In this document: positions 21,801-63,890 of the stretch, piece after piece
Numbering within the stretch: position 1 is the stretch's first letter
How the letters are laid out: the number at the start of each line of letters is the position of its first letter
Made by a program: the position numbers and the translations under genes
Notes under the pieces: generated by a model
Seen by the model: only the letters and a program-made list of their open reading frames with translations
Databases searched by the model: none
What the model was told of the DNA's origin: nothing
Origin: Yponomeuta sedellus
Lineage: Eukaryota > Arthropoda > Insecta > Lepidoptera > Yponomeutidae
DNA length: 64,000 nt
Reading direction: 5' to 3'
Assembly (NCBI GenBank): GCA_934045075.1
Contig: OW203727.1
Span: forward strand, 16,738,861 to 16,802,860

Positions 21801-21939
21801 GGTGCTTTGTTTGTCATATACATATAGTATTCTTATTTATTCGCCAAACTTCCAGCTCACATTTCAGATGGATATATATATCTATAAGCATATAGAATCT
21901 AAAGTGTTACTGTGTTAAATCACACTTATCAAACGTATC

Positions 21940-22303
21940 GATATCAACCCTTGTTTGTCCCCACTGCTGGAGCACGGGTCTCTTCCTGCATCGCAGGAAG
22001 GTTAGACCATACTCCATCATGGGGGCCAAATCCGGGTTGGTCGAGGGTTGTAAGACTGTGGCGGGCCATACTGTCAGAAGTTATCAAGCCGCCCCTAGGG
22101 CCTCGGACATGGCTTAACGACCGCCATTACATAACAGCCTGCACCAACGGCTTAACGTGGCTTGCGAAGCACGGAAGCGCTCGGAAAAATGCCACTAGCG
22201 GTAGTCAGGGGACTGTCACCCATCCTGCACCTGACCACGCCTGTTGTTGCTTAACTCAAGTGATTGATTCCAACCACTCGGTTCGACTAGGCCACGAGTG
22301 CTT
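21940..22303 (+). repeat. Rep350 full-length copy
   Basis: Complete + copy; the open frame across it is incidental. Confidence 0.75.
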
Positions 22304-22684
22304 AAAACGTATACTCATTCTTATACATACTTATATAGAGACGAATCCAATCACGATTATTTGTTAGGTGCCGGTTTAGGTAATTAATTAAGTTTTACTT
22401 AGTAAATAATCGCGACCAACCCTTTTAATGTATAAATAACCAACCATGTATGAGCAAGAACATCACGAGTCGCAAGAAATACTCAATTTAATTCAATTTT
22501 ATTGCAACATAAAGTAAAGAATTTAAATTCTGTTTGCCGAATGTGTGTGTACAATGTAAAATGAAAGTGAAAGTAAAAGCTGTTGCCTTAGGGCCGTAGG
22601 GTAGTGCAGAAAAAGCGGGTAAAAAAAACTCCACTCTGACCATCATTTCTCAAGTCATACTAAACCTAATACATCAGTTAATTC

Positions 22685-23642: not shown

Positions 23643-23715
23643 ATGCAGTATTGGTTTGCGCTTTATAGTTCGTTAGTGTTAGTCTACGCTCATCCAAGAG
23701 AGATCAATATTCAAG
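23643..23715 (+). CDS. Exon 1: signal peptide
   Basis: Encodes residues 1-24 plus one base, starting MQYWFALYSSLVLVYA, a short hydrophobic signal peptide with an Ala at the likely cleavage point. The donor is CAAG/GTGATT, which is acceptable but not strong. It ends in phase 1, which fits exon 2. The ATG was chosen because it alone opens this frame and has A at -3. A LINE relic begins about 220 nt into the following intron. Confidence 0.7.
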
Positions 23716-26700
23716 GTGATTGGATTAGATTACAGTGTTTTTGTTTACATATTTAAAAGCTATTTCCTCGTAAATAAATACCGGCAGTTACAGGAAAGCA
23801 ACGAAACGAAACGTGTCTTGAGTGTAAACGTAAATAAGATTGTGGAACTCCATTAATTCGTGTTTGGTAGGAAAATTGTCATATTATGTACATTGTGCTA
23901 AAGAAGAAACTTCATCAACAATTTTTTTATGTAACGTCGATTGTGTGCCACTGCCGGGCAAAGGCCTCCCCTTTTGCCTTCCACTCCTCCTTGATCATGG
24001 TCACCTCCTGCCAGCCCGGCAAAAAGGTCGTGAGGTCGTCCCGCCATCTCCGCTTGGGTCAGCCACGTTTGCGATATTCGTCGCGCGGAACCGAGTCAGT
24101 GACGATTTTTACCCACCTCTCTGGGTCCATACGGCTTAGGTGGCCCGCCCAATTGCACTTCAGTTTAGCGGTTTCAGCTCCAACATCGACAATTTTGGTT
24201 CTGGACAACAATTTAAATCGAATTCAACAATTTAAATCCATAAATTAGCATTATATTAGCATGGAGCGGCGGTAGAACAGTGGGTAGAACACTGGACTCG
24301 GAAGCGAGAGACCGAGGTTCGATTCGCAATGAGAGCATGTACTTTATTTACTTATACTTTATTTTCTAACTTATGCAGATTGGTGAAGTTATAGTATCAA
24401 TTCTACTCGCTAACGGTAAAGTTATTATGAAATTATGAATCCGTGGTGGGCACGCATAGTAATTAAGCCCATACTCAATCTAAGAGAAGGCCTGTGCCTG
24501 TGGGACGTCAAAAAGCTACATGAAAAACGCATTTTGTTCCACTGATCAGTCAAAGAAACTTTCTCAAGTGAAGCATATAACTAAGTAAAAGGAACAGTAT
24601 TCTTATCACGATTTTCGATATTTTACTATTTTTGATATTTCGATGGTGAAGGTGGTTGTTTATGTACCATCACTTAAGGTTTAAAAAGCCATATAAAATT
24701 TAAATAATATTATTTTTTCCAAAGTGTTAAGGTTCGTTGCTGTGAGGTATTAGGTATTCAGTTAAAGAGGATACCTACATCTTGAGTATCGTGGAATATG
24801 CTAAGAGAAAGCGCTTTTTTATTACAGAGAGAATGTAAAGCGGTTTTTTGTGGAGCTCTAATTAAGTTTGAATTCATTACTTTGCGGAAACGCAAAGGTC
24901 TTTTTTCAAAGAGGTGTTTTATTTTCGCCTTAGAAAAGTACGAACAGTGGATGTTAAGAGAACTATCTTGTTTTAAAATTATTATGTCTGTCGTACTCGG
25001 CAGTACTCCAAAGTTAATTACCGTTAGAAGTTTTCAAATAAGTCTAATACATAATGTATAGCGCTTCGCCATCTTTGGAAAATATTAAGTAATTGGCAAT
25101 AAGGCACCAAAGTCTGTCTTCGTCGAAGCCTTTCGACTTGGCAGCCGGCGCCGTTCGGGATGGGTGCAGTGGAAGGCTTGGGGATCCCTAGACTTCCCCG
25201 TCTATTCCAAGAGCTCTTTCCCCAGAAAGCTATCTACAATGCACCTTCACGGCACCACGTTTTCATCGAAAGATGTCTACTAATGTATAGTTTGGCGACT
25301 CAAATCATCTTATATGTTTATCAATTCTATTTTTCACCTTAAATTAATATTAATAATAATATTAATAATAACATAACATAACTACTTACATTCCTGTATC
25401 CAAGAGGGGTACGTAGAGACCAGGGACTGCAACTTGCCGTGATGATGACAAATCGCCTTTGCTTCATCCACGTTCATAAGTCGTTGCATGCGTTAAATAA
25501 AAAATAAATAATATTTTGCGGAAATCCATAATAGCAGCAAGCAAGTATTGGTGTCGGTGGTGGTGTGTTTGTGTCTTGCTTCTGCTTGAAAAAGTGAGAG
25601 AGAGGGCGGTGCATTAACTAACTGCATGTTGGTTGTGGTATTTTCGATGGAATTTTGCAACGTAATGTTCACATTTAATGCTGAATTAAATAATAATAAT
25701 AGTTTAATAAATAATTATTTTGGAACTGAACTGAAACTGTCGTAATTACTACACAAAATTAGCAAAACCTGATCGGACTCTTCGGGCAAAAAATCAAGTA
25801 AGTGAATCCGGAATTAGATTAGATTATTGTACACGCCAGAAAACAAAATACTTAAAAAGGCTTACATATCTAAGTATTGCCGTATACAATAATCGGCGGT
25901 CTTATCGCTAAAAGCGATCTCTTCCAGACAACCTTGAGATGGATAGAACTGAAAGATGAAGAGAGTAAGAATTAGCATAAATCAATTCATTATCGATTTA
26001 TTATTCTTTTAGATGAATGTGAGCTGCTTAGCTGTGTGGGTGAAGAATACTCGTGCGTGAATGGAAAGTGCTTCTGCGCATCCAACTATGTGCCTAGCCT
26101 TTCGCAAACCAGCTGCGTCCGATGTCCAGGTAAGAGCAGATGCCTATTTTACTGAGTCACAATTCATGGTTTACTATGACTATTCCACGTACATTAAAAA
26201 GTCGATTCACTCACAAATTATTAAGTAGGAGGACTCGGCTACGCAACGCGAAATGGTCAAAATTAACTGTGACTTGTAGTATTGTGAAATGCGACCGTGC
26301 CCTATTTTGATGATATCAACCCTTTGTAGTCCCTACTGCTGGTCTCTTCTTCCATCGCAGAAAGGTTAGGCCATACTCTACCACGGGGGCCTAGTCCGGC
26401 TTGGTGGAGGATTGTAATATAGTGGAGGGCCTTAATGTCAGAAGTTATCTAGCCGCCCATAAGGCGTCTGTCATGGCATAACGATTGCCATTATATGACA
26501 GCCGGCACCAACGGTTTAACGTGCCTTACAAAAATCAGAAGCGCTCGGCAAAAATGCCACTAGCGGGAGTCACGAGATGGGCACCCATCCAGCATCTGAC
26601 CGCGCCTGTTGTTGCTTAACCATTAGTGATTGCTTCCAATCAATCAGTTCCACTAGACCACGAGCGCTTCAGATCCACTAGGCCTAGCGGCATAGCGCCG

Positions 26701-29700
26701 TAAGACAAGATAAGAAAAGATAAGAATATTCTTTATTGTACACCAGAGCACATATTATAAAACATGTAAAGATACAAAGTACAATTGGCGGCCTTATTGC
26801 TAAAAGCAATTTCTTCCAGACAACCTTAAGCCGGAAAGTTGCTGAAGTATTTCCTTCAGCAACTTTCAAGCTTAAGGTTGTCTGGACGAGACGGGTAGTC
26901 GGTGCAAATATGAATATTCTGTATGATATGCCGTATTTTGCTGTTATATATTTTTATTCAATCTCGACACCTAAGATTAAGACAGTATCAAAACTGCGAT
27001 GACAGGTTTCGTACGTATTAAACAAGGACACTGAGGCAAATATTAACAGCAACCCTACCCTACGTAATACAGAGAATATTGTAAAGAGGGTCGAAATTTC
27101 ACTGATGCCGGTGAGTCGCCCATTAGCTCAGTTGGAAAGAGCGCTGGCACGGATAGCCAGAGGTCGCGGGTTCGAATCCCGGCATGGGTGGATTTTTTAG
27201 CCTCTAAATAGGTTTTTCAAACCCTACCCTACCTAACCTAACATCTCCACCCCAATCTAGCTGCGGTTAGGTTGAGGTGAGGTGTGTTAGGTTTTCAAGA
27301 TTCACTGCAAATTAGGTTTCCGTCCTCAAAGACCTCTCGACGTTGCCTTTCTAACGTGAAAGTTAAAAAGCCCCGAAACCGAAAAAATTCTGTTTTAAAC
27401 GCGAAATACGTAAATTTCTAGGATTAGAAAACATTTTCTATATGATGAGTAGGTCCAACCATTCGGTTTAAATTATAAATATAAATATTATTATTCGCAC
27501 AGCTGTGATTTTTTAACTATTCTTGGAAGTGCTAGTGACGATCCATAAGCTAGGGCTCTACGAGCAAATTTTTTTTATACATACATAAATAACCTCACGC
27601 CTGTATCCCAGAGGAGTAGGCAGAGACCAGGGACTGCCACTTGCCACGATCCTGACAAATCACCTTCTCTTCATCAACGTCCATAATTATAATTTTTTTA
27701 TAATTAACGTTAAACCGACTTCATTACACTAAGGCACTTAAAACGCAGAAATAGTTTAAACGAATACGACCTCTAAATTCAAAATTCTTATAAATCTAGT
27801 CATGGTAGAAGTAGATAAAAATCACTTAATGTCTGCGACTTTGATTACACAAAGTTAATACAATTTGAATTTATTTATTTCGAATATTAATCTATATGGA
27901 CATTTTTCACGCATATATACAATCTATTTTTAAAATCTAATATAATTACATAGACATAAAACCTTATACTGATTCATTACACAATTACTGATACTGAAAT
28001 CAGCATTACACAATTTAAACCGCACCTCAGCTCTCTTGGCGCTGCATGCTGCGCACACCGGGTACCGGCAGAATATCAGCGCTGAAGTTTTTTTCCGAAC
28101 TTCCAGCACATGCTGAGTCAGAGCCCATTTACGTTTGCCACACCTACGTTGGTAACTCTTAGTCCAGTACATTGCCCGGGTACATTGCCGTACTGTGTAT
28201 GGCTAGTTGTCTGTGTGTTTCGCTTTTCATGTACCAATGCTACTGTTTTGTTTGTTTATTATTTCTTCGTGCTGTGACTTGTAACCAGATTCTTATGGCT
28301 TCACTTTATATACGTGTGTGTGTCTTTTGTAAATAAATTGTTAATCAATCAATCAATCAATATGTATATTGGAGTCGGTGCCAAGACTTTATCAGAGCAT
28401 CACTGAATTACCAATTACCCACCCAGGATCACTGAAACATATGCATTGCATATTACTAATGGATGGGCCTTATTTGCTTCTGTCCATTGAAGAGTTCCGT
28501 TCTCCATATCTGAAAGTCCTCATCATATATTCACCAAATTCAAATTGGACCAATATTGGGACGCTATATCTAATCTAACAAAAAACGGTTAAGATTTGAC
28601 GAAGTTACGCGAGAGCATAGTAAAAAAGTAACAAACGCGTCGAAATAACCATGATCGTCATATAATCCTTTTCTGAGGCGAACCGAGTGATTAGAATCAA
28701 TCACTTGAGTTAAGCAACAACAGGCGCGGTCAGGTGCAGGATGGGTGACCGTCCCGTGACTACCGCTAGTGGCATTTTTCCGAGCGCTTCCGTGCTTCGC
28801 AAGGCACGCTAAGCTGTCGTCGGTGCCGGTTGTCATGAAATGGCAGTCGTTAAGCCATGTCAGAGGCCTTATGGACGGCTTGATAACTTCTGACAGTAAG
28901 GTCCGCCACTGTCTTACAATCCACCAACGTGGACTGGCCCCCGTGGTGGAGTATGGCCTAAGTTTTCTGCGATGCAGGAAGAGATCCGTGCCCCAGCAGT
29001 GGGGACATACAAGTGTTGATAACGACAACGAATCCTTTTTTGAACGTGGTTAAAAACGGTGCACACTCATTGCCAACCGATGATAATTATCCTGAAAACT
29101 GGAACATTTGTACAGCACATAGAATATTATCTTCCCATTTCGTTATAATATTCATGAATGTTCTTATTAGGCCAATACTACCAAATTAGGATCTTTACTA
29201 ATTAGCAAATTTGCAATAATAACGTAGGTACTTAATTAGTTTACCTACGGCAACTTTGCCTATTTGAAAGGTAACGAAGGATATTGTTACGAGCGTCTTA
29301 ATTGTTTGTTCAAGCTACAAAATTAAACAAATTTTACGAAACCTTGTACAGTCGGCAGCACATCAACCTTAACATATTTTGCAAGCTGTAACGTAAGTGA
29401 GTGGAGTGTAAAGTCATATTTTGTTTTAAATATAAATTTAATTATTTACATTTCTCTTAACCCATATAAGCCCAGAACTTTTTTAGTTTCAGATTTTGAT
29501 CATTTTCAATAATGTTGATGTCAATAGGCTAAGATACAAGTTTAAGGTGATTTTAAGGTGGAAAAAATTATATTTTTTGTGTTTTTTAGGTGTTCGAAAA
29601 CGATACATTGGGCATATAGGGAAGAGCGGGTGATCGTGCTCTTCCACTGTAAAGGGAAATTTCCCGCCAGGCAGATCGTATGCCTGGGGACGGCCGGTCC

Positions 29701-32700
29701 AACTGTTGTTAGTCGGACGTTATATTTATGCTATGTCATTAAAACACTTTGATTGCGCGATGCAGGAATGTTGGAGTTTGTAGTGCGCGCGCAGAGTTGA
29801 CATGTGCTCGCCACATCACTCCCCTTCAAGACCGTAGCTACGCATAGCTAGGTCTGATAGGAATCGAAGTCTGTGCTATAAAGCCTGCAAGTGCCAGGTG
29901 ACGCTGAGTCTGTGAGTCGACTAGCGGTTGAGGGTGTTCGGCGGCTAACAGTCACTTCACCGGCGACAGTACCATGGAGCCCGCGCATGTGGTAGGAACC
30001 GGTGAAGGCTGCTGTACCACTGACAACGTGTGCTGTTGCTGTGTGGCTGCCGTGCCGAGGGGTTGGAGGAAGATCACCATCAGTCCCAGTAGTCGGTGCG
30101 TTGACTGTAGTGGAACTGATGAAGTGAGAGGGAAGAATGCTGGCCTTGCTTTGAGACTGTATGTGGGGTGATGCGAGAGCGAAGGAAGGTTGACAGTGTT
30201 CTGTCAGGGGTCACCACTATAGGGAAGAGCGGGTGATCGTGCTCTTCCACTGTAAAGGGAAATTTCCCGCCAGGCAGATCGTATGCCTGGGGACGGCCAG
30301 TCCAACTATTGTTAGTTGGACATTGTATTTATGGTATGTCAGTGAAACACTTTGATTGCGCGATGCAGGAATGTTGGAGTTTGTAGTGCGCGCGCAGAGT
30401 TGACATGTGCTCGCCACAGGGCATATATGCTACAAGATATATAGGTAATTTAAACAACGAGGTTTTCTATGTTCTTTATTGAAAAAAAAGGAAAGAAATA
30501 ATTCTAAATACTTATAATTTAACTATGAAATGCCGAAAAACATTTAGAGTGTAGGTTAACCTTCCATTTTTCGCAGTAAGAGACCGTCAAACTTTTACAT
30601 AACGCACATCTCATCCTCTTCGGTGCCCTGGTGATTATGTGCTCGGCGGTATGTTTACAAACCGTAGCAGGCTCATGCGTAGAAATACGCTTTGAAGGTC
30701 TGGAATGTTGCTTTTTACATACGGAATTACATACTGGAATGTTGCTTATTACGTTTCTTTGCAATAAGGATCTAGCAATGCTGCGCCAAAATTCCAGAGT
30801 ATCTACATCTTTGCAGTAATTCCGAGCTAACAGGGTAGCAAACGTAGTGTAGGACGCCCTCCGACCAGGTGGGATTACGATCTGCGAAAAACTGCCGAGA
30901 TATGCTAAATGCGGCAAGCTGAAGACAGGTTCATTAGAGGAGGGCTATGTCCAGCAGTGGACTAATATAGCCTGAAGAAGAAGAAGAAGGGTAGCATTGT
31001 TGACTGCAACATCTGTCAGCCACAAGATTATCGGCATGTACCACTTTTTTCCACTTATCGCAATGCGATAAGTACCCACATTTTCGTCCAGCCGATCGAC
31101 ACCACCCATGAAACTGTTATATTGGCACACAAAGTTCGGTTGTGGTACAGTTATTCTCTCCTTTTGGGCACCTGAGTTTCTTCTTGCATGTTGTAATGGT
31201 TGAACACCATACACACTAGGTAACACTGTGACCACACTGTTATCGTACACAAATGCCAGCGGCAAGCCGGCTTGACGCAAATACAGCACGTTGTTGCAGT
31301 TGTTCCTTACAAGACTTGTCGTCTCTCAAAGGACACTTCTGTCTGCGGTTGCTGCGTACTGCACCTGTCACTAGGACGTTTTTCTCTTTCATGTACGATA
31401 CTAAGGGTAGTCCAGAAAAAACTATCACAGTAAACCGAGAGCCTCGTGTCTTCGTAGAATTTTTGAATCCAAGTCATCAATTTTGTAACAACATGATGAC
31501 CTAATCCGGAACTGTATTGTTCGTAGCAGCCTTGATATGGATTAGCGTACAAGCAATATCCTAAGCGCCAAATCTTATGGGTTTCCTTTTTATATGCTGT
31601 TTACATCCATGCCTGCCATACTACGGTATCATTGACTCCTCGATGCTGATGTCTTTTTACCCGACTGCAGCGAAGCCCAAAAGGAGGGTAATGTGTTTAG
31701 TGCGTATGTATGTATGTATGTATGTAAGTATGTCCGATTCTATGTTCCCTCATAACTCCTTAACCAATGGTCAGATTTTGTTAAACAAGGTGTCATTCGA
31801 TTCGGCATCCTTGCGCGGGTGTCATAGGCTATATAAAATCATAATTATGCGATCAGAACCGTGACGAAAAATATAATTCGTTAAGAAGCTTCGTTAAAGT
31901 ACAGCTAGGAGCCACTAGATGGCGCTGTTATATTTAGTTTATTGAATTCGAATACTAATTTTATTGAACTACCCCTAACAGGTGTGAAATATTTAAAACA
32001 GAATTTTGCGGATGACGTAGGTTACATAAAATCAGCATTAATAGAGAACCAACGGAACAAAAAATAACATTTACTTCTAAGCAATTAAAGTACCACTTTT
32101 AGCCACTTGATGGCGCTGCTATATTTTATTTATTCTAATACAATGTGTATACATAATTTCGGCTTTGGTCTACATGTAAACAAACCATTTATAGAATCGG
32201 TACAAATGCGGAAAGAAATAATTCCTATAAAGTGGTTTGATCCTTCTAGATCATTCATTTTATTAAAAAATATAATTTTGTTTAACTACGCCTAACACGT
32301 GCAAAGTATTTAAAAGAGAATTTTCCGGGTGTCGTTGATTACATTAAATCAGCATTAATAGAGAACAAACGCAACACAAATAATATTCACTTCTAAGTAA
32401 TTAAAGTACTGTAGCATTAGTTCCTCTACCCAACCACAGATGGCGCTGTTTGTGTTCTAAATTGCGGTATGGTTTTGTCCGAAGGCGAATATTAAACAAA
32501 ATTGGATAGTATTTGAGCGCTTGCGAATCATCTCGGCCAATACTGACTGTCCATTAGTAATAGGCACGACTAGTGACGTAGGTAATATACCTCGCTTTGC
32601 GCTGTGGTGCGAGTAGTACAGTTACTAATCCGTAATCCTTAGTAAGTTTCATATTGCTTCAATAAATAGATCCCTAAGTACGTGCTGTCGTGCTGAAACA

Positions 32701-35700
32701 ACGTTTCTCTTCTTGTCTGCTGAAACCCTGTCCTACAGTACCACTTTTAGCCACTAGATGGCGCTGGCATATATTTATTCTAGTACATGTATAAATTTAC
32801 ATAATATCAGCTTTGCTCTACATGTAAACAAACCGTCTATAGAAACGGTATAAGTGCTGAAAGAAATAATGCCTATAAAGTGTTTATTTCTTTCTACGCC
32901 ATTCGTTTATCTCATTAATTTAAGAAATATCAACCTCATAGGGGGTAATAAAAATAATACAATTACTGCAGACGCCGAGAAGTAAGGGATTGCTGGACGA
33001 GTTTGGGATAGACGGCCGAGTCGTAGACGAAGCCGTCTAGAACGAGTCCTGCAATCCCTGTTCCGGCCGAGGATTGTATAATGCTTTTCTCAAACAATGC
33101 GAGGAAATATTAATATTAAAATAATTACTAGGTAATTAAGAAATAATAGTTTGGTTTGCCGTCTTTTTATTTTTTTAAATACACTAACATATTTGAGCAC
33201 CATGTTTAACCGCACAAAAACCAATACCATAGATTGTATTTTTTGTTAATCTAAGTATGCTTACATAACTTAGTAGGTGGTTGGCTGTATGTAATTTTTC
33301 CTTGGTCAGTTTAATTTTAGTAAGTAAATTTAAAAAGTTAGAGCAGCGGACGGTAATGGATTTTCATACTTACTTTACTGGCTTAGGCCAGTAAAGTGAG
33401 GCGGGAGCCATAAAAGAGAAACTTTGTGGCTTTATTTCATGGTAATAACACAAACATTTCTGAGCATGTTTGAGAAAAAATAATTAATTTCTTAACACTG
33501 ATATTAATTTCCTACTGACACTTAGACCAAAACTAACTGAACAAAATATATAAAGTGTAGCATGTAACTCCTTTTCCCCTGTGCGGTCATAGTCAGACAA
33601 GCTGGGTTCAAAGAAGAAACAATAAATGATAAAAAAATATTTGAACGCTCTCACTGGTAACCGAAGACGGATCCTCCGTGACCTCGTATCGTAGGACCCA
33701 TGAAATTTTAAAAAATTCTAGCTCTATTCATCTTAACGAATTTTATCTCGTTTCCTCCGAAAATAAGATTATGATTTTGTGCTAGGTTTCCTGTTCACTT
33801 GTGAGACCAAAGATTGCTTATCTACACCTAAATATTCAGTAAAATTTTTCAATGCTTTAGGGGGCCACCTCAAGATGAATTTGTTATAGTTTCATTTTAA
33901 TACCGGTAATATTTTGGCATTCAGAAAACCAAGATTTTGTATGTCCCCACGCCCATGCCACAACTCTAAATAACTACGCCAGGCCGAAGGCCGAGCCCCA
34001 TCATGCGGGTGCGAGGAAACTTGCCGCGACGAGGTTGAAGGCCGAGTTCAATACAGGTCGCGGCACGGCCGAAGGCTGTGAAGCGGGCTTATAGAATACT
34101 CCCACGGCGATTCCAAATGCTGAGCTCTATTTACGCTGATGCCAAATGGAGAGACTATTAGCGCGGCCGAAGGCCGCGACAGTTACTTAAAGTTGCTGTT
34201 AGGAGGAAACCTGTCGCGCCTTTGTACAGGCCGCGGCTGAAGGCTCAGACCATTTATGTTCCCATTTAAAAGTCCTTATTCTAAGTAATTAGCGAGACCG
34301 AAGACTGGGCCCAGCAATGCAAGCACGAAGAATTCTAGTCTGGAGATGTCGAAAGCTGAGCGCCGTTCAGGTCGAAGAGGTAATTCGTGACTACTCCAGT
34401 CCCCACCTACAATCGTTAACATTAAATAACTAGGTGCAGTGGAGCGTTTTAGGCTACATAAACAACATACAATTTATGTAAGGATAATAAAGAAAAAAAT
34501 CTGTCGTTTCCTTTGCAAATATTCTAGATAGTTTAACACCATTAGACCATATTCATTATACTAGCTAAAAAATATCGTACGACATAATTTTTTAATGCAG
34601 GCAGGTGGTACCTATGACTATATCAAACAAGTATATCAGTAAAAATATTTATGATTTGCCGAGACATGTCCATTGTCGAACAAAAGAAAATAAAGCAATA
34701 AACTAAAATTCATTTAGGACATAAAATAATATAACGATTTAAAGCATGTAAACAGAACAGATGGACCTTTAAATTTTATCGTTTTACTGAGTCACTAAAA
34801 GGTCAAAAATAAAAAAATATTTAAAAAAATAAAAGAACCCGACTGCAGTGATAAATCAACTGAAAGGGAAAAAATAAGATAATTTTATTTTCAAATGCTA
34901 ATGTCGAATCAGAAGAGTTCATGCTGCTTTACTTGAGGGACCAAATAATATAACTTTATAAGCATTATTTGCTCAAACTGTTGCATTTATTATTTTATAT
35001 AAAATGATGCAGTCGGGACCCATTAGAGGACTTTAAACAAACAGTAATGGGTCCCGACTGCATCATTTTATATAAAATAATAAATGCAACAGTTTGAGCA
35101 AATAATGCTTATAAAGTTATATTATTTGGTCCCTCAAGTAAAGCAGCATGAACTCTTCTGATTCGACATTAGCATTTGAAAATAAAATTATCTTATTTTT
35201 TCCCTTTCAGTTGATTTATCACTGCAGTCGGGTTCTTTTATTTTTTTAAATATTTCAATAATAGCATATTGCAAAAAAAATTCGTTGAGCATGACAAAAA
35301 GGGTTTGCAAAATCAAAGTTGGTTTCGTCTCCTGAGTCCGAATCAGACAACTACGGACAACAATAAATATGTCAGCGCTTATCACCTCATCATCCGAATC
35401 CGATTCGTTGAGTAAATCTACTACTTCATTTGTAGTCAAAGCCTTGGACATCCTAAAACTAAAAATATAATTTAGTACAAGTTTCACCTGTATATTTGCC
35501 CAACGTATCGTTTTCGAACACTAACAATTACAAGGTAATTTAGGGATAAGTAGTTGAATGAAATATCAGTTACTACTAAAAACATGAGATAATATATTCA
35601 ACTTTACTTTAGAATAATAATAGTAGCAGAAATCAAAAGAATTCTAAAAAATAACTTACTTACTTCTCGGAGCCGACATGTTTTTTACGCGCCAAAGCAC

Positions 35701-38700: not shown

Positions 38701-39143
38701 CCCAGTGTGCGGCTAGAAGCAATGTATGTGCCTGTAGATATGTAAATGTTATGTTAAGTTAATATTATGTAATTTATTCGGTAACATGTTGCTCTGTCTT
38801 ACCGATGACGTGATGGGGAGAGGGTGCCTTTTTAGAACAATAATATAACGTTTATGTCACGTAAAGTCATTTCAAAAAGCTATGGTGTATGGATGTATGG
38901 ACATCCAAAGTAAAAGTTGTTCATATCGACGAGTTTGTGTTTAAGGCCATTACTATACCATTTACAGGTATATTATTACTAGTTCACCCCGCAAAAGTTT
39001 TTGATTTATTCAAAAGAAGACATGGAAAAACCACAAACCTGTTGTTTTTGCCATATTAAATAGTCAACGACCTATTCTTAGATCTGCCAAAAATACACAA
39101 AAAAACTGTCAATCCATTTCAGTGGAGTTTACTGTGACACGAG

Positions 39144-39187
<44 letters not shown>

Positions 39188-44337: not shown

Positions 44338-44393
<56 letters not shown>

Positions 44394-56300: not shown

Positions 56301-59300
56301 ACGGTGGGCATGCGTGGTAATAAAGCCCATACTCTCTCTCTGAACGAAAAAAATAAATTAGTTTCTTTATTATACGCAACAAAAAACAATCATAGAGACA
56401 ATAGTTACAAAAGAAGTGGTACAAATAGCGGCCTTATACTGAAAGCAATTAGTTAATGTTAACGTTAATATACGCTACCAGGAGTATTTTTGTATGCATT
56501 TCGGCCAACTGGTAAAAGTAGATCAACAAATTGCTAGTGGGTCGCCTAATTTCATGTAAATTTAAGCTTTTCTTTTTTCCGTTCTTTCGTTTCAGACCAA
56601 ATAACCAATCCCATGATGGAACGCGGTTATCAATAGGAAGCTTACAACTTTACGTGGAGGAGAGACTTAGAGATGCGCCACCGAGGTAATGATCACAATC
56701 ATCATCCAGAGCTGCCCTTATTGAAGCAACTAAATAATTTCCCAAAAATATTCTCTGCTATACCGTATGGGTTGGTGGAGGATTGTAAGACAGTGGCGGG
56801 CCTTACTGTCAGAAGTTATCAAGCCGCCCATAAGGCCTCTGACGTGGCTTTACGACTGCCATTATATGACATCCGGCACCAACGGCTTAACGTGCCTTGC
56901 GAAGCACGGAAGCGCTCGGAAAATATGCCACTAGCGGTAGTCACTCCCCGGACTTGGCCCCCGTCGTGGAGTATGGCCTTACCATCCTGCGAGGCAGGAA
57001 GAGACCCGTGCCCCAGCAGTGGGGACATACAAGGGTTGATAACGATACCGTATGGGGCCAGACAGTTGCCACTGACTGGGTCCCACGCGACGGATAATCG
57101 TGGCCGACCAAGGCGGTGATTGCGGGACGATCTCAACTTTCTGCCGGGGTGGCAGGGAATGGCCGGTGACAGGGAGGAGTGAAGAGCTAAACGGGATAGA
57201 CCGTGCCGTTGCCCAGTAGTGGGACCACAGATATCTCACAGCGGGACCCTAAAGCAGCTGCGTAAAAAAAACTTCTGTAATTGCTCGGGGGGTGGTCTGT
57301 GATATACCTATGTCCATTTCAACTTGGATATTATTTTTGGAAAATTCTAGTTAAGTAGGTACTTTTTCTCCAGTCACCACCGTTTAACAGGGGCGTGTTT
57401 CACTAATATACCATTCATAGTTTATTACAATAAATCGAAGAACCTTGCATAGCGGAGCCTTCCTCCTTTTTCTTCTTAGGGTGTCGAAGGCAAGCCATCA
57501 TGGTGGCAGGATTTGCCAATCAGCGTAAGAATCTCGCTAAGTGTCGCCCAGAGCGCGCCAGATGAACGGGCTCATTGAGCACGTCGTTGGGGGATGCTCC
57601 AGACATGCACCCCTTCCTACATGTTAATCTGTTGGAACTGAATTGTCATAGTAAACCATGAATTGTGGTTCTGTGAAACTGGCCGATGGCGGTCGTAAGT
57701 AAACGAAGACGGAGTCTTGGATACTACGTGAATGCTTCTAATATTCCGGTTAGCTCTAGTTTCAAAGAAACCCAGATTAAATTATATCTCTCAGATAATA
57801 TATTGCATATTTAAAGAGCGAAAAAGATATCAGTACTGCAAGCAGCCTTATATAAATAGAGGTTATCTTTTTCCAGCTACACGAGAGCGGGACCTGCCAG
57901 CTCGTCAATAGCCCCAACACCATTCTTTGTCAACGCAGGATTTGTAAGTATCGAAGTAATGCTGTATGTATCTCGATATCTCCTTTGTAAGCGACAGAAC
58001 GCACGGACCCCTATAATGCATTAAATGTAATGAAAAAATCCGACAGCAAGTGCGCGAACTTTTCAAACATTTTCATATTACACGCCATAAATATAATATG
58101 AGGACTACAACTGAGAAATAGAGATTTGATTTAAAAAGTTAAGGTCAACATATATTTAAAAGCCGTACCTCCCATTTAAAAAAAAAAGTAAATATTAGTG
58201 GCAAACCCAAGCATACCCCTCCGGGGAATTTTGGGAAAGTTCCCAATGTTCCCAAAATTCTCAGTGATTATAATGCGTGCCTAAATTTTATTATTAGTTT
58301 TAATACATTGATGATCACTAGTAAAATACCACAATAAAATTTCTGCATGAGGGATGTATTCCCAGCGACACAACAGCAGGCGAACGAGAATGTTCTCAGA
58401 AAATGAGTGCGCATAAAGTAAGCTCATTATAATTATTTTGTGATTTGCAGTTTTGCACTGAATAACTGAGTGGTATAAATAAAACGAAGACATAATTTTT
58501 AAATTCTTGTAAGCATCAATCGTTTTAAGTCACAATTAGTTAAGTTACAAATTATATAGGTTGGATCGTTAATTTTTGATTAAACTTTGATTAGCTTCTT
58601 TATTTAATTAAGTACCAATTTGCGCAAGGAGAACTACTGGATCCGTTTGTTAATTGCGGATCAAGTCACATATACTACAATTAAATAAAAGTATGAAACT
58701 ATGTGGTCGTAATTAAATATCAAATATTGATGTGCGTTCTCGTTCATATTTTATCACGCTGTCGTCACACATTAAATTATATGTAACTAGATTTTAAGCT
58801 AGCTACACCATGATATTATAACATGCAATGTTACTGATCTGTCGTGTAAAGCAATAAAATAACATTTATAATGAAGATCTCGTCCTGCGAGAACTTTCTC
58901 GGAGAACATTCCTCCCGGTCCATTTCTATTCGTGACGCCTCATGACGACGTCGACACTTTGATGCGTTCGTTCGCACAAATATGTATCATCATGAATATG
59001 TGACACTTATCTGCGCCCCTTATGTTTATCGCAGCTATATTTTCACTGATAATATCGCTGTAGACACGTTTATCACATATATTTACTCGATGTCATGGTG
59101 TCATTCGATGTCAACCTCAGAGTTCTACACAAAGTTCAGCCAAAGTCAATGTTACAATTAACAACCATTAATGACTATGTGCTGTGTGGTGTCGGCCTAG
59201 AGAATAGCACCAATCCAAATTCTTCCCGCGCGTGTCGTAAAAGGCGACTAAGGGACACAAACCCAGGGGTGGGCAGCAGCGCCCCTCTGCAGTACAATCC

Positions 59301-62300: not shown

Positions 62301-63890
62301 GGCTTTATATAAGTGTAAACCCTGTATGTAGATTACATAACTCTTCATATTATGAAGAGTACATTTTAGACATCATATTATCTGATTTTGATGAATAAAA
62401 TCTTATCTTATGTTACCTTAAATATACATCAACTAATTGAGGCCTGATTTGTTCACAATTAACATTAAGTAAACAAAGAAACCCGGACTCTCTCACAAAG
62501 TATTAAAATTTATGGTAAGTGATGAAACAATATAAAACTGAAAAAATATTTTTTTAAAACAAAAGAACCCGACTGCAGCTATAAATCAATTGAAAAGGCA
62601 AAAACAAGATAATTTTATTTCAAAATGCTAACCTAGAATCAGAAGAGATGACCCTGCTTTACTTAGGTGACCAAATTATATAACTTTATAAGCATTATTT
62701 CCTGAAAGTGTTGCATTTATTAATAGTTCGTGGGTTTCGCGAAGCTCACTTTAGAAATTCGCTGCTCCAGACGTCCAACCCCTCCGACGTTGCTCTTCAT
62801 TATTTACTTATATGCACGTCCTAATGATAGGTACTTGATAACAGGAAAAGTTGACTGCAAAGACTTATTGAAATAATACGAAACCTAAAAACGGTTTTTT
62901 GAAAAAGTTATTTAAAGCGGGTCTACTCGTAATCGCGGTTTTTTATGTAGTCTATTAGCGTCCCACTGCCGAGCACAGGCCTTCTCCCAGAGAAAGATTA
63001 TGGTGCCCACCGCGGATTGGCAATTTCAAGCGCTAAGGTATTTGAAAACCTCAAATACTCACGTTACCTCACGATGTTTTCCTACACAGTTAGGTAATGT
63101 GGAAATATAGACTCTGCTGCATGCTATAAGAACTCTCTTTTCTATGTTCTGGACAATGCTCTGCTAAGTTCACTAACATACTCTTTCTCTCGTCTGAACG
63201 GCTCTTTGTGGAAACGTGAACAAAAATTAGGACAGTAGGACATATAATCTTAAAAGAAAAACTGTCACACCTAACAAGAGTTTACAAGTTAATCAATGAG
63301 TAAAAGTCGAGTCACTTGTAAAAGGAACATTTCTTAAAAATTCCATTCACAATTTTATTTTGGAATATTAATTATTCATCAAAAAGACCCTCCTAAGGAA
63401 CATTTGAATAGTAATATTTATCCATAAATTTAATCCATAAATGCCCAGCGTGGGGATTATGGGCATTACCCCTCAATGATGGCACAACCTTGCGCTCATT
63501 AGGGGAGGGCTATGTCCAGCAGTGGACTAATAAAGCCTGAAGAAGAAGAAATGTAATTGTTCATTTTAGTTGATAACTCTCTCTCTCTCTCTTCCCAGCT
63601 TTAGTCCAACATGGCGTTGGGATCAGCTTTCCCTATTTTCTTTCTCCACTTCGCCCTATTCATTTTCCTTAATCAGTTTATCGGGAAAAATGAATGGACG
63701 TAGCACTTTTAGTTTGATTTTTTATTTTATTTAGCCGATAAACGTCTCACTGCAAGGCACAGGCCTCTCAGAGCGAGAGTATGTGCTTAATTATATACGT
63801 TTTTTTCAGATTCACGATAGCAGCGTCCCGCCTCCTCCATACACGCCAAGCAAGTCTGAGGAACAATCAAGCCTTGCTGTACATATTTGA
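23643..63890 (+). CDS. Seven-exon gene: cysteine-rich type I membrane protein with PPPPY cytoplasmic tail (gene span)
   Basis: Joining seven exons gives an uninterrupted 678-nt frame (225 residues plus TGA), with GT/AG signals and matching phase at all six introns (1, 1, 2, 2, 2, 0). Seen in the translation: a hydrophobic signal peptide (residues 1-16, ending VLVYA); 14 cysteines between residues 27 and 101, including a CVNGKCFC run and a CC pair at 73-74; an NTS glycosylation sequon at 79; a hydrophobic helix at about 112-137 followed by K139; and a tail ending SVPPPPYTPSKSEEQ and further residues. PPxY motifs bind WW domains, for example of Nedd4-type ligases, so the tail may recruit trafficking or ubiquitin machinery; that is inference. 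The topology resembles Shisa/VOPP-type small cysteine-rich PPxY proteins, but I cannot show homology. The spacing of the first cysteines is EGF/EB-like. Coding DNA is under 2% of the span. UTR exons and the polyadenylation site were not identified. Confidence 0.8.
23935..24190 (-). mobile_element. LINE reverse-transcriptase C-terminal relic in intron 1
   Basis: The - strand reads KLKCNWAGHLSRMDPERWVK, PRDEYRKRG, stop, PKRRWRDDLTTFLPGWQEV and EEWKAKGEAFARQW. This is clearly the tail of a non-LTR retrotransposon protein, with one internal stop. The same family occurs at 57057. Confidence 0.75.
24262..24515 (+). repeat. SINE-C-like copy in intron 1
   Basis: A tRNA-like head (GAGCGGCGGTAGAACAGTGG, GAGGTTCGATTCGC) is followed by the body GAAGTTATAGTATCAATTC and an inverted AGAAGGCCTGTGCC end. 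Confidence 0.65.
25388..25495. repeat. Tail repeat (CCTGTATCC family)
   Basis: CCTGTATCCAAGAGGGGTAC to CATAAGTCGTTGCATGC, the same tail that follows the LINE frame at 8540. Other copies: 830-890, 9455-9540, 21690-21800, 27596-27690 and, inverted, 60235-60305. Confidence 0.55.
25840..25945 (-). repeat. LINE tail (TTATTGCACAA family) in intron 1
   Basis: TTATTGTACACGCCAGA to GCGGTCTTATCGCTAAAAGC and CTTCCAGACAACCTT, ending about 70 nt before exon 2. Confidence 0.55.
26013..26129 (+). CDS. Exon 2: first half of the cysteine-rich ectodomain
   Basis: 117 nt, phase 1 to phase 1, so it could be skipped without shifting the frame. The acceptor TTCTTTTAG follows a good pyrimidine tract and the donor is CCAG/GTAAGA. 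It encodes D25 to P63 plus the first base of G64, with cysteines at 27, 32, 39, 44, 46, 59 and 62 and an EGF/EB-like core (CVNGKCFCASNYVP). It stands out from its surroundings by sense-codon composition and tight cysteine spacing. Confidence 0.85.
26315..26668 (+). repeat. Rep350 copy in intron 2
   Basis: Complete but diverged, about 190 bp after exon 2. Confidence 0.7.
26720..26890. repeat. LINE tail fold-back
   Basis: The TTATTGTACACCAGAG tail continues to CAGACAACCTTAAGC and then folds back: arms of about 30 bp around 26829-26885 pair closely. Confidence 0.6.
27064..27219 (+). repeat. SINE-A, single copy with target duplication
   Basis: Starts GTAATACAGAG and ends AGGTTTTTC, flanked by AACCCTACCCTAC at 27051-27063 and 27220-27232. 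Confidence 0.85.
27596..27690. repeat. Tail repeat (CCTGTATCC family) in intron 2
   Basis: CGCCTGTATCCCAGAGGAGT to CTTCATCAACGTCCATA. Confidence 0.55.
28340..28362. repeat. AATC microsatellite in intron 2
   Basis: About five units of AATC. Confidence 0.8.
28672..29025 (-). repeat. Rep350 full-length copy
   Basis: Complete reverse copy in intron 2, ending ACATACAAGTGTTGATAACG. Confidence 0.75.
29615..30418. mobile_element. Short element with 201-bp direct terminal repeats (TRIM-like)
   Basis: Two nearly identical direct repeats (29615-29815 and 30218-30418) flank 402 bp of internal sequence. The flanks repeat GGGCA on both sides (29610-29614 and 30419-30423), consistent with a 5-bp target duplication, and the repeats end in CA. 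Small LTR-type non-autonomous elements have this layout. I see no clear tRNA primer-binding site next to the left repeat, so the LTR assignment is uncertain. It is inserted in the piggyBac-like element. Confidence 0.55.
30519..31653 (-). pseudogene. piggyBac-like transposase, catalytic and C-terminal part
   Basis: Starting at the copy A junction it reads ISIEESMIPYYGRHG, then passes through shifted frames with GYEQYSSGLG-like, YCDSFFWT and CPLRDD stretches, then PQPNFVCQYNSFMGGVDRLD and KKWYMPIILWLTDVAVNNA, all characteristic of the piggyBac transposase domain. It ends in a Cys/His-rich tail (CALCK, YCEKW, HSKCF), as in the family's zinc-binding C-terminus. Several stops and frameshifts make it inactive, and a LINE 3' tail (30933-30988) is inserted in it. 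Confidence 0.75.
30933..30988 (+). repeat. Short LINE 3' tail inserted in the piggyBac transposase
   Basis: Carries the recurring CCAGCAGTGGACTAATATAG tail followed by a GAA-repeat end, as at 15810, 38515, 59405 and 63510. It interrupts the transposase frame. Confidence 0.6.
31912..32766 (+). promoter_or_regulatory. Four CTCF-like motifs in copy A
   Basis: CCACTAGATGGCGCTG at 31912 and 32751 matches the CTCF core consensus CCASYAGRKGGCRS exactly. CCACTTGATGGCGCTG at 32103 has one mismatch. CCACAGATGGCGCTG at 32434 keeps only the 10-bp core. All face the same way. Binding by an insect CTCF is inference. Confidence 0.4.
33975..34385 (+). repeat. GGCCGAAGGCC hairpin tract in copy A
   Basis: About eight versions of a GC-rich mini-hairpin (GGCC, loop GAA, GGCC, and decayed forms such as GGTTGAAGGCCG) within 410 bp of otherwise AT-rich DNA. 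Copies B (about 41690-42090) and C (about 47530-47935) carry the same tract. It could bind a transposase or form RNA structure; neither is shown. Confidence 0.6.
34815..35255. repeat. 441-bp terminal palindrome, copy A
   Basis: Two arms of about 200 bp, nearly perfect inverted repeats, around a loop of about 20 bp. Each arm carries CCCGACTGCA at both its outer and inner parts, so the unit looks like two joined element ends. Confidence 0.8.
35256..35451 (-). pseudogene. piggyBac-like transposase, N-terminal fragment
   Basis: Reads MSKALTTNEVVDLLNESDSD and onward from ATG at 35451, a typical acidic piggyBac transposase N-terminus. It breaks off at 35256 where copy A of the 3.6-kb element begins. 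An AG precedes the start, so a leader intron is possible. Confidence 0.6.
36120..36345. mobile_element. PIF/Harbinger-like MITE
   Basis: Ends GGGCTGATTTTT and AAAAATCAGCCC with TTA on both sides (36117-36119 and 36346-36348), the 3-bp target type of PIF/Harbinger elements. 226 bp, non-coding, internally palindromic. The right half contains an inverted copy of sequence that lies outside the left end (about 36050-36115). Confidence 0.65.
36350..37695. other. Intron 2, no feature recognised
   Basis: Unique sequence with a short direct duplication (GAATGACTATCAAAAACTAT near 37405 and 37452) and a small inverted repeat around 36415-36475. Confidence 0.45.
37700..37800 (+). repeat. LINE tail (TTATTGCACAA family), + orientation
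   Basis: TTGGTTGTCAGAAAGAGATC to GGTGTATACAATAAAC, about 100 bp before exon 3's acceptor. Confidence 0.55.
37903..38017 (+). CDS. Exon 3: second half of the cysteine-rich ectodomain
   Basis: 115 nt with acceptor CACTCCAG and donor CCG/GTAAGG, phase 1 to phase 2. It encodes residues 64-101 and part of R102, with seven cysteines (69, 73, 74, 84, 89, 92, 101), the CC pair and the NTS sequon at N79. It follows an intron of about 11.8 kb that contains the nested piggyBac cluster. Skipping this exon alone would shift the frame. Confidence 0.85.
38300..38550 (+). repeat. LINE 3' tail (GAA/GAT-ended family)
   Basis: GTGTCGGCCTAGAGAATA to CCAGCAGTGGACTAGTATAG and a GACGAT-repeat end. Same family as 59170, 61215 and 63435. 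Confidence 0.6.
38565..38765 (+). repeat. SINE-B copy
   Basis: GGCGCAGCGGTAGCGCATCT with an intact GGTTCGAACCCCGG box B and the common body. It follows directly on a LINE tail (38300-38550). Confidence 0.75.
39150..39186. repeat. AT microsatellite in intron 3
   Basis: About 18 AT units. Confidence 0.9.
39300..39487 (+). repeat. SINE-A copy
   Basis: Leader with GCCAGATGTTGCTGCCTG, box A at about 39383, box B at about 39430, and a shortened tail missing the AGCCTCTAAATAGG block. Confidence 0.75.
39795..39935. repeat. Rep350 5' fragment forming a fold-back
   Basis: AGAGACCCGTGCCCCTCGGA and its complement form a palindrome of about 60 bp with a 5-nt centre, followed by a GAT microsatellite. 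Confidence 0.65.
40130..40215 (-). repeat. LINE tail fragment before exon 4
   Basis: TTTATTGCACAAACATTTTA to GCGGCGGACTTAATGCC, a diverged copy about 100 bp before the exon 4 acceptor. Confidence 0.45.
40316..40450 (+). CDS. Exon 4: juxtamembrane segment and transmembrane helix
   Basis: 135 nt, phase 2 to phase 2, with acceptor TAATTTCAG and donor ATCAG/GTTTGG. It encodes R102 to I146 and part of R147. An acidic juxtamembrane stretch (FDSRDNMD) is followed by about 26 hydrophobic residues (from ILLVTVSQIAMATALVLG to the LLC at 136-138), then K139. Because it is phase-symmetric, skipping it would remove the membrane anchor without changing the frame and could give a secreted form. Copy B of the 3.6-kb element begins 360 nt downstream. 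Confidence 0.85.
40811..41251. repeat. 441-bp terminal palindrome, copy B
   Basis: Same length and content as at 34815-35255, with the central loop in the orientation expected for an inverted copy. Confidence 0.8.
43299..44153 (-). promoter_or_regulatory. Four CTCF-like motifs in copy B
   Basis: The same four motifs on the - strand at 43299, 43617, 43947 and 44138, conserved without change. They point toward those of copy A and away from those of copy C. Confidence 0.4.
44333..44393. repeat. TACA microsatellite at the 5' end of copy B
   Basis: About 14 units on the + strand. The matching TATG runs in A (about 31700-31728) and C (about 45255-45288) are shorter, so this is the main length difference among the copies. 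Confidence 0.85.
44878..44925. repeat. Palindrome between copies B and C
   Basis: AAAAGAATCAATTCCTACTC pairs with its near complement ending GGGAATTGATTCTTT across a short centre. Confidence 0.6.
44975..45040 (-). repeat. tRNA-like SINE head (SINE-D)
   Basis: On the complement, CTCGGTGGCGCAGCGGTTTG and GGTTCGAACCCCAGCC give boxes A and B. A single copy in this window, in the spacer between copies B and C. Confidence 0.55.
45466..46320 (+). promoter_or_regulatory. Four CTCF-like motifs in copy C
   Basis: The same motifs on the + strand at 45466, 45657, 45988 and 46305. Confidence 0.4.
48369..48809. repeat. 441-bp terminal palindrome, copy C
   Basis: Same length and content as the other two copies. 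The equal length in all three shows that it belongs to the element. Confidence 0.8.
48870..49154 (-). other. Open frame, possible retroelement remnant
   Basis: A 94-codon frame with SLQHILYECELERQRVF, which resembles the HILxEC block near the end of some non-LTR proteins. No other supporting motif. Confidence 0.2.
49923..50041. repeat. Short inverted-repeat element
   Basis: An ACACAACACGGGAGGTAAT left end pairs with an ATTACCACCCTAGTTGTGT right end; the inner parts also pair imperfectly. About 119 bp, non-coding. Confidence 0.5.
50125..50490. repeat. Second copy of the 10830-type element
   Basis: Contains CCGTCTGTCTGTCTAGCCGC, a TTTGGCATATAT block with an AT microsatellite hairpin (50205-50240), and a GGACGCCTTCTAATAGG end. 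Confidence 0.5.
50984..51197 (-). repeat. Rep350 5' part
   Basis: Reverse copy truncated at the GTCGACTGTCATGTAATGGC point. Confidence 0.7.
51250..51770 (-). repeat. SINE-C copy
   Basis: The tRNA-like head lies at 51690-51770 on the complement (CGGGGTTCAAACCCACGACC as box B). The body runs left through CGATGTTTTCCTTCACCG, a GTTAGTTAGACCTGAGATT block and an AGAGAAGGCCTGGGCC segment, which may include a second nested copy. Confidence 0.65.
51780..52735. other. Intron 4, no feature recognised
   Basis: AT-rich unique sequence. Confidence 0.4.
52742..52968 (+). repeat. Rep350 5' part
   Basis: Well conserved to GGCACCAACGGCTTAACG, then broken off, at a place similar to the break in the 50984 copy. 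Confidence 0.7.
52970..54440. other. Intron 4, mostly unique
   Basis: Apart from the palindrome at 53778 I see an A-run at about 53400 and an LTR- or tail-like GAAAATGAAAATG run at 53010-53045. No gene. Confidence 0.4.
53778..53841. repeat. Perfect 64-bp palindrome without loop
   Basis: Two 32-bp arms beginning GAGAGTACAGCAGAAACTGC meet at AACGTT with no mismatch. No known repeat family recognised. In intron 4. Confidence 0.85.
54448..54640 (-). repeat. SINE-B copy
   Basis: Reverse-complement copy with body, box B and box A in that order. Confidence 0.75.
54735..54935 (+). repeat. Rep350 diverged 5' part
   Basis: Same order of blocks with deletions, ending after GACTGCCACTACATGACAGC. Confidence 0.6.
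55505..55580 (-). repeat. Rep350 5' stub
   Basis: TCCTGCGACGCAGGAAGAGA to CAAAGGGTTGATATC, about 75 bp. Confidence 0.55.
55757..55900 (+). repeat. SINE-C head
   Basis: AGCGGTGGTATCGCAGCGGT and GTGGCTTCGAAACCGACATG, matching the 51690 copy in inverse orientation, truncated after a CAATGACTTTGTTTTCTAAG block. Confidence 0.65.
55998..56215. repeat. SINE-A fold-back with target duplication
   Basis: A - copy joined to a short + tail, flanked by TTATAGTAGCAAT at 55985-55997 and 56216-56228. Confidence 0.85.
56365..56455 (-). repeat. LINE tail fragment before exon 5
   Basis: TTTCTTTATTATACGCAAC to GCGGCCTTATACTGAAAGC, about 140 bp before exon 5. Confidence 0.5.
56596..56685 (+). CDS. Exon 5: cytoplasmic tail, proximal part
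   Basis: 90 nt, phase 2 to phase 2, with a strong pyrimidine tract and TTTCAG acceptor and donor CCGAG/GTAATG. It encodes R147 to P176 and part of S177, including GTRLSIGSLQLYVEERLRD, a stretch that could form an amphipathic helix. Only about 75 nt of unique intron follow before a fold-back repeat insertion at 56772. Confidence 0.8.
56772..57044. repeat. Rep350 fold-back with 12-bp target duplication
   Basis: A + segment (to about 56945) is joined to a - segment, flanked by ATACCGTATGGG at 56760-56771 and 57045-57056. The insertion split a LINE relic and lies 86 nt after exon 5. Confidence 0.8.
57057..57235 (+). mobile_element. LINE reverse-transcriptase C-terminal relic in intron 5
   Basis: Shifted frames give ATDWVPRDG, RDDLNFLPGWQGM and DREEWRAK, the same family as 23935. 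It was split by the Rep350 fold-back. Confidence 0.6.
57877..57943 (+). CDS. Exon 6: cytoplasmic tail, Ser/Pro-rich segment
   Basis: 67 nt, phase 2 to phase 0, with acceptor CTTTTTCCAG and a near-consensus donor TTT/GTAAGTAT. It encodes S177 to F199, rich in Ser, Ala and Pro with one Tyr (SYTRAGPASSSIAPTP), probably disordered. Confidence 0.8.
57945..59160. other. Intron 6, no feature recognised
   Basis: AT-rich unique sequence with a short hairpin at about 58220-58262 (GGGGAATTTTGGG and CCCAAAATTC). Confidence 0.4.
59170..59445 (+). repeat. LINE 3' tail, longest copy
   Basis: Runs from GTGTGGTGTCGGCCTAGAG through AAAAGGCGACTAAGGGACAC and CCCGCATGCCCAGCGTGGGG to CCAGTAGTGGACTAATATAG and GAAGAAG. 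Confidence 0.65.
59520..59660 (+). repeat. tRNA-like SINE (SINE-E)
   Basis: GCCTCGTTGATCTAGCCTTT and GAGTTCAATTCACACTGAT resemble decayed boxes A and B, with a downstream GTATTTTCATGCTTGTGACG block. Confidence 0.45.
59735..59860 (-). repeat. LINE tail (TTATTGCACAA family) in intron 6
   Basis: GAACACTTTATTGCACAACC to TAGAGCGATCTCTACCAGAC. Confidence 0.55.
60049..60203 (+). repeat. SINE-A, single copy with target duplication
   Basis: Flanked by AAAACCAAACAGT at 60036-60048 and 60204-60216; ends at AGGTTTTTA like the 27064 copy. Confidence 0.85.
60700..60960. repeat. Unclassified dispersed repeat
   Basis: Shares GTGGGCTAGGCCGACTAAGC-type and GACGCTGTATAAATCAT blocks with 8380-8480 (inverse) and 13140-13270. 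Non-coding. Confidence 0.4.
61215..61305 (+). repeat. LINE tail fragment joined to SINE-A
   Basis: GGTGCCGTAAAAGGCGACTA to ACTGCGATCCTGCAAG, running straight into the SINE-A leader at 61305. Confidence 0.5.
61305..61508 (+). repeat. SINE-A, long copy
   Basis: Includes the GCAAGTGATGCAAATTACTT leader and the SINE body, ending AGGTTTTTA. Confidence 0.8.
61510..62550. other. Intron 6, mostly unique
   Basis: Contains a short direct duplication around 61655-61700 and the doubtful antisense frame at 61963. Confidence 0.4.
61963..62148 (-). CDS. Possible small membrane-protein frame (doubtful)
   Basis: A 61-codon - strand frame with two hydrophobic stretches (FINFVMVLTVFLNW and PVIITGIATCISILIGGF) around a polar loop. 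I do not recognise it. It could be the last exon of an antisense gene, a pseudogene, or chance in AT-rich DNA. No good splice acceptor was confirmed upstream. Confidence 0.15.
   Translation of the reverse strand: MHFFINFVMVLTVFLNWNKLEVRPDFHQVRMEIPIYTLPQPVIITGIATCISILIGGFELA
62555..62735. repeat. Old half-arm of the 3.6-kb element's terminal palindrome
   Basis: Begins AAAGAACCCGACTGCAGC and continues with diverged but collinear sequence to about 62735. It matches one arm only, without the second arm or the rest of the element, and may be an ancestral form or a decayed solo end. Confidence 0.65.
62945..63090. repeat. GTCTCACTGCAGGGCAC repeat, long copy in intron 6
   Basis: TAGCGTCCCACTGCCGAGCA through GCCCACCGCGGATTGGCA to CACGATGTTTTCCTACAC. 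It links this family to the body of SINE-C. Confidence 0.5.
63435..63550 (+). repeat. LINE 3' tail in intron 6
   Basis: TGCCCAGCGTGGGGATTATG to CCAGCAGTGGACTAATAAAG and GAAGAAGAA. Confidence 0.6.
63745..63795. repeat. Repeat fragment at the exon 7 acceptor
   Basis: ATAAACGTCTCACTGCAAGG to TATGTGCTTAATTA ends about 15 nt before the acceptor AG of exon 7. Confidence 0.6.
63810..63890 (+). CDS. Exon 7: C-terminal exon with PPPPY motif and stop
   Basis: 81 coding nt, phase 0, after acceptor GTTTTTTTCAG. It encodes IHDSSVPPPPYTPSKSEEQ and six more residues, then TGA at 63888. PPPPY at 206-210 fits the WW-domain ligand consensus PPxY. The sequence just upstream of the polypyrimidine tract (63745-63795) is a fragment of a dispersed repeat, so the acceptor region is partly repeat-derived. 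No AATAAA is visible before the window ends. Confidence 0.8.
   Translation: MHDSSVPPPPYTPSKSEEQSSLAVHI

Follow-up and report, generated by a model that had tools for sequence, protein, structure and literature searches.

Can a gene be recognized in raw DNA when all its coding exons are short and lie spread over 40 kb, and what might the product of such a gene do? These questions are raised by a stretch of 64,000 nucleotides (nt) from the moth Yponomeuta sedellus (GenBank assembly GCA_934045075.1, contig OW203727.1, positions 16,738,861 to 16,802,860 of the forward strand), here called the window. A first-pass annotation, made from the sequence without database searches, had proposed that 23643-63890 holds a seven-exon gene for a cysteine-rich membrane protein of 225 residues with a PPxY tail. 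We find that the seven-exon gene is almost certainly real. To judge by its sequence, its product, about 221 residues long, is a single-pass membrane protein of type I and belongs to an unnamed insect family. Thus, reading raw DNA can recover a small-exon gene spread over 40 kb.

The seven-exon gene and its product

Exact exon coordinates can now be given for one member of this family, with exon 4 in its corrected form.

Exon 1: 23643-23715, plus strand, 73 nt; ATG and signal-peptide-like N terminus, with parallel N termini in homologues.
Exon 2: 26013-26129, plus strand, 117 nt; first half of the ectodomain, with seven cysteines in EGF/EB-like spacing.
Exon 3: 37903-38017, plus strand, 115 nt; second half of the ectodomain, with seven cysteines in knottin-like spacing.
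Exon 4, most likely form: 40328-40450, plus strand, 123 nt; membrane helix (in the 225-residue version, 40316-40450, 135 nt).
Exon 5: 56596-56685, plus strand, 90 nt; conserved inner tail, ending inside the first PPxY motif (PPSY).
Exon 6: 57877-57943, plus strand, 67 nt; remainder of PPSY, then a linker.
Exon 7: 63810-63890, plus strand, 81 nt with the stop; PPPPY (63828-63842), a lysine, the C-terminal V-H-I, and TGA (63888-63890).

As first proposed, the chain comprises 678 nt including the stop codon and encodes 225 amino acids (aa) in frame, with no internal stop, and its exon borders are GT-AG. The first-pass annotation gave no inner coordinates, and we located the inner exons by listing open AG..GT segments that were rich in cysteine or hydrophobic residues. 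We chose exons 5 and 6 with the help of the total length claimed for the product, so that length is not independent evidence for those two exons; the homologues are. The AATAAA nearest downstream lies about 409 bases behind the stop codon, 299 bases past the end of the window, and is a possible polyadenylation signal.

A protein search with the product, which the first-pass annotation had suggested as a check, returned 43 relatives at an E value of ≤1 among 142 candidates, all of them uncharacterized. Where a source was named (38 of the 43), it was in every case a moth or a butterfly. The relatives are mostly 211 to 232 aa long (35 of 43), they are 40 to 57% identical to the window protein, and 38 of them align over at least 80% of it. 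This last result agrees with the earlier view that the seven exons give a complete cysteine-rich, single-pass protein with a PPxY tail.

When 49 homologues were compared with the window by tblastn, the numbers with a match at E < 0.01 were, from exon 1 through exon 7, 0, 44, 45, 45, 48, 12, and 41; at E < 10 they were 7, 46, 48, 47, 49, 33, and 47. Shuffled copies of the same 49 proteins served as a control, and 1 of their 471 matches fell at E < 0.01 (best, 0.004). Outside the exons, the real homologues gave 559 matches, the best at 0.006. The moth's own genome (657.5 Mb in 57 contigs), searched at E ≤ 10, yielded seven ordered matches to the protein, all of which were the seven exons in the window; no second copy of the gene was seen at that threshold.

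These results bear on the possibility that open segments happened to line up as an apparent exon chain. Such a reading could draw on the shortness of exons 1 and 6 and their weak matches (0 and 12 of the 49 homologues at E < 0.01), and on the use of the claimed length in choosing exons 5 and 6. However, colinear homologues, the seven ordered matches in the genome, the shuffled control, and a multiple alignment that runs through every junction make it extremely improbable; for exons 2, 3, 4, 5, and 7 the tblastn comparison with its control in effect refutes it. By the same comparison, the chain is more than chance would give. Exons 1 and 6 have the support of their splice sites, of the frame, and of the multiple alignment. 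Exon 1, the weakest by similarity, is a predicted exon based on its frame, its splice donor, and closely parallel N termini such as that of homologue P0012.

The chain as first proposed needs one probable correction. In the 225-aa version, four additional residues follow the last cysteine of the ectodomain, and none of the 43 homologues has residues in those columns; the columns just after them are occupied in 38 of the 43. In six homologues for which the start of the tblastn match to exon 4 was inspected, it lay at 40326 in four and at 40338 in one, and one gave no match. An AG at 40326-40327 would give an exon of 40328-40450 with the phase unchanged and with the C-R-D junction of the family restored, and a simple acceptor matrix scores this start at 0.8 versus −0.4 for the start at 40316. 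Because no homologue carries the four residues, the most likely start of exon 4 is 40328 rather than 40316, and the product is then 221 aa long instead of 225 aa. Both acceptors could be in use. The exon sizes, put at 67 to 135 nt before, keep their lower figure and become 67 to 123 nt. Homologues with a different exon chain had been named as grounds for rejecting the gene; the departure found amounts to a 12-nt difference in where exon 4 begins.

In the window, exons 2 and 4 each have a length divisible by three, and skipping either would leave the frame intact. Several database proteins look like exon-skipped forms. In P0036 and P0040 the missing part corresponds to about exon 2; in P0039 and P0043 it covers the residues of exon 4, and with them the membrane helix; and in P0026, P0033, and P0035 it is limited to 11 residues where exon 4 begins. 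The label isoform X2 is carried by P0026, P0033, P0035, P0036, and P0039.

A cysteine-rich family without a name

Cleavage of the signal peptide is predicted after residue 16 (a V-Y-A site, read by eye), and a structure model places a hydrophobic helix at residues 104 to 140. The 14 cysteines ascribed to the ectodomain were confirmed by count, with 16 in the whole protein, and their spacing is kept in 44 of 50 sequences. A glycosylation sequon is present in 39 of the 47 sequences in which the cysteine module was found. From its cysteine spacing, the ectodomain looks like one EGF-like half joined to one knottin-like half, and it gave weak matches to EGF- and Dkk-like folds. Fold matches from the VIA lists that fit the long helix only (reovirus sigma1, NEL dimer, and tail fibre) were set aside.

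The protein could not be placed in a named family by the first-pass annotation, and our searches came to the same end. At E ≤ 10, no Pfam family matched the 225-aa protein, its ectodomain, or its tail. Over 22 members of the family, the best Pfam match of any kind had an E value of 0.0014, and among 20 members compared with NCBIfam, one gave a single weak match of no relevance. Foldseek found no match at E ≤ 0.001 among PDB or viral models, and sequence searches of PDB gave chance-level matches only. PMP22_Claudin, the family behind the value of 0.0014, matched 6 of the 22 members; it was rejected, as proteins of that family have four membrane helices and the present one has a single helix.

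What the protein does resemble is a set of lepidopteran proteins, such as LOC110384030 of Helicoverpa armigera and LOC115456420 of Manduca sexta, with the same length, cysteines, helix, PPxY pair, and C terminus. Colinear similarity, the 14-cysteine ectodomain, the helix, and an R[DN][AV]PPxY box all place the window protein among them. A tree of 42 of the 50 sequences, from which 8 short, broken, or fused models had been left out, contained no well-supported set that includes the window species. One relative beyond the Lepidoptera was found, a protein of 337 aa in the stick insect Bacillus rossius (profile search, E = 4.6e-5). Aligned with the family by hhalign, it gave a probability of 98.3; the 145 aligned columns extend from the cysteines across the helix to the sequence RDAPPRY, all three of which it retains. 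P0042 is a distant member as well, with 37 to 42% identity to six other sequences and an E value of 9e-10 against the stick-insect protein. A third search, with the stick-insect sequence added, scored only the 7996 candidates that shared most words; among these it found no further insect order, a result that does not speak for absence from flies, beetles, or bees. Within the open-licence literature, neither 12 homologue identifiers, of which 11 were locus names and one a UniProt accession, nor topic led to a paper on the family. We conclude that the family is present in the databases without a name or a function and that its ectodomain is unlike those of the named families compared here.

An analogy with the Shisa and VOPP proteins had been offered, and it holds for topology. 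Like the Shisa-like (STMC6) proteins, which include Shisa, WBP1, VOPP1, and TMEM92, the window protein is short and single-pass, with a signal peptide, a cysteine-rich head, and PY motifs. Membership is another matter. The window protein has no match to Shisa_N (PF13908) in Pfam at E ≤ 10, and a search of the moth genome with PF13908 gave one match, below the cut-off and on another contig. According to PMC5578492, which cites Pei and Grishin 2012, most Shisa-like proteins have six cysteines arranged as C*C*CC*CC, whereas the window protein has 14 with one CC pair. The legend to S1 Fig of the same paper describes a motif of four aromatic residues in the Shisa-like helix; this motif is absent here, the hydrophobic stretch of exon 4 having one aromatic residue (F).

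Commissureless (Comm) and PRRG4 are further short, single-pass proteins with PPxY or LPxY motifs that act on surface receptors, as described in PMC5578492. In that account Comm has no cysteines in its ectodomain, whereas the window protein combines its PPxY motifs with 14 of them. Identity with Shisa or Comm was rejected on the cysteines. PRRG proteins differ by carrying a Gla domain. The topology, and perhaps the working principle, is common to the window protein and the Shisa-like proteins; membership is not.

The PPxY tail and a possible job at the membrane

The window protein has two PPxY motifs, PPSY followed by PPPPY. The PPPPY in exon 7 had been recognized before, but PPSY, at the junction of exons 5 and 6, went unmentioned in the first-pass annotation; it is cut by the intron between those exons and is therefore invisible in unspliced DNA. 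Most of the family has PPRY at this position. At least two PPxY motifs are present in 47 of the 50 sequences, the box R[DN][AV]PPxY in 49, and a lysine no more than 8 residues after the last PPxY in 45. At the C terminus, 37 of the 50 sequences show the hydrophobic-x-hydrophobic pattern of class II PDZ ligands and 3 the class I pattern, and 10 fit neither; these assignments follow a motif rule. The features by which the family can be recognized are thus the 14 cysteines, the RDAPPxY box, the second PPxY with a lysine behind it, and the hydrophobic-x-hydrophobic end.

PPxY motifs are ligands of WW domains, and their presence in the cytosolic part of a membrane protein is a hallmark of adaptors and substrates of NEDD4-type ubiquitin ligases. 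In the moth's own genome, there were 26 matches to WW domains at E ≤ 0.01 and 38 to HECT domains at E ≤ 1e-5, and on contigs C4, C12, and C21 WW and HECT exons adjoin, an arrangement expected for ligases of this type. The tail of the stick-insect protein matched Melan-A (PF14991) with an E value of 0.0058 and 17.3 bits, below the cut-off of 27 bits, and the stick-insect sequence was the only one seen to match. Melan-A itself is not known to have a cysteine-rich ectodomain.

Two documented systems offer parallels. The nearest is CYYR1, which, according to PMC11399591, has a signal peptide, a cysteine-rich domain, one helix, and three PPxY motifs, through which it binds WWP1 and routes that ligase to degradation in lysosomes; PMC5578492 assigns CYYR1 to the Shisa-like family. 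The window protein shares the signal peptide, the cysteine-rich ectodomain, the single helix, and the several PPxY motifs of the tail, with two of these instead of three. The other is Melan-A (MLANA), which has a PPxY tail and, according to the review PMC9604169, undergoes ubiquitylation by way of NEDD4 and ITCH, with sorting to lysosomes.

The parallels with CYYR1 and Melan-A, the affinity of PPxY for WW domains, and the WW and HECT exons in the genome lead us to favor, by a little, the reading that the window protein recruits a NEDD4-type ligase, acting either as an adaptor or as a self-limiting receptor. The ectodomain, with its EGF-like and knottin-like halves, would bind a ligand or a partner membrane protein, a step that we consider possible but doubtful. 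The PPxY pair would recruit the WW domains of the ligase, which would then ubiquitylate the PPxY-tailed protein or its partner, and the complex would be sorted to endosomes and lysosomes; for recruitment together with ubiquitylation and sorting, the case appears evenly balanced. The C terminus may also dock a PDZ scaffold, although we would accept this only with considerable hesitation. The net effect would be that the adaptor controls the amount of some surface protein retained at the membrane. Recruitment of a NEDD4-type ligase at the membrane is a job that can be tested.

Alternatively, the protein might be a receptor or coreceptor that signals or adheres through its ectodomain, with the PPxY motifs controlling only its own turnover. 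The conservation of the 14 cysteines (44 of 50) and of the sequon (39 of 47), together with the weak EGF- and Dkk-like fold matches, would fit such a role, and Melan-A, according to PMC9604169, exemplifies a membrane protein with PPxY that serves as the ligase's own substrate. However, conservation is strongest in the tail, which holds all the columns that are invariant among 44 aligned sequences (in the 225-aa numbering, R157, S159, S162, R170, L171, R172, P175, and P176). This suggests that the tail has a role beyond marking the protein for turnover. We regard this alternative as rather unlikely.

Less probable still is that the PPxY motifs recruit WW proteins other than ligases or, together with the PDZ-like C terminus, form a scaffold at junctions or in cell polarity. 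Not all of the 26 WW matches lie near HECT exons, and the hydrophobic-x-hydrophobic end occurs in 37 of the 50 sequences. There is also a precedent in CKAMP/Shisa6-9, which end in a type II PDZ motif (PMC5578492 and PMC6470934) and by it place a partner at the membrane (PMC6470934). Against this stands the nature of the C-terminal reading, which is a motif only and which 10 of the 50 sequences escape altogether.

Returning to the ligase adaptor, a broader view of the family can be put forward tentatively, as somewhat less probable than the adaptor role itself. The family may be an ancient one in insects, older than the split between stick insects and moths, consisting of EGF-plus-knottin membrane proteins with a tail of paired PPxY motifs and a PDZ-type end. 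It would then be an insect counterpart of the Shisa and CYYR1 adaptors, built on a different ectodomain and controlling the surface level of a receptor or channel. Should this design have an origin separate from that of Shisa and CYYR1, the combination of a cysteine-rich head with a PPxY tail has come about more than once.

Repeats and transposon remains around the gene

Introns 2 and 4 hold three copies of a 3.6-kb element.

31654-35255: copy of the 3.6-kb element.
40798-44365: copy of the 3.6-kb element, inverted.
45204-48809: copy of the 3.6-kb element.

The three copies are 99.8 to 99.9% alike, with a palindrome of about 440 bp at one end, and no open reading frame (ORF) of at least 100 aa was found inside the element. 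A 1-kb piece of it had 40 long matches among the genome candidates scored, those outside the window at 95 to 99%. We take the element to have spread or been duplicated locally in recent times.

Also in intron 2, on the minus strand at 30519-31289, is a fragment of a DDE_Tnp_1_7-type transposase (PF13843, E = 2.3e-9). Upstream of the gene, two adjoining ORFs at 16655-17646 are probably the remains of a transposase; the first has a DUF4817 helix-turn-helix (E = 4.7e-6), and the second had no Pfam match. A tandem array at 11966-13014 consists of 11.2 copies of a 94-bp unit. A dispersed repeat of about 300 to 370 bp, with 82 to 88% identity among its copies, occurs in both orientations at 7602-7896, 19910-20262, 21938-22307, 26341-26669, and 28676-29025, and its presence explains two ORFs, at 21912-22367 and 28570-29028. 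Finally, a short repeat at 63715-63793 ends 16 bases before the acceptor of exon 7 and has 39 further scored matches in the genome, at 80 to 93% identity.
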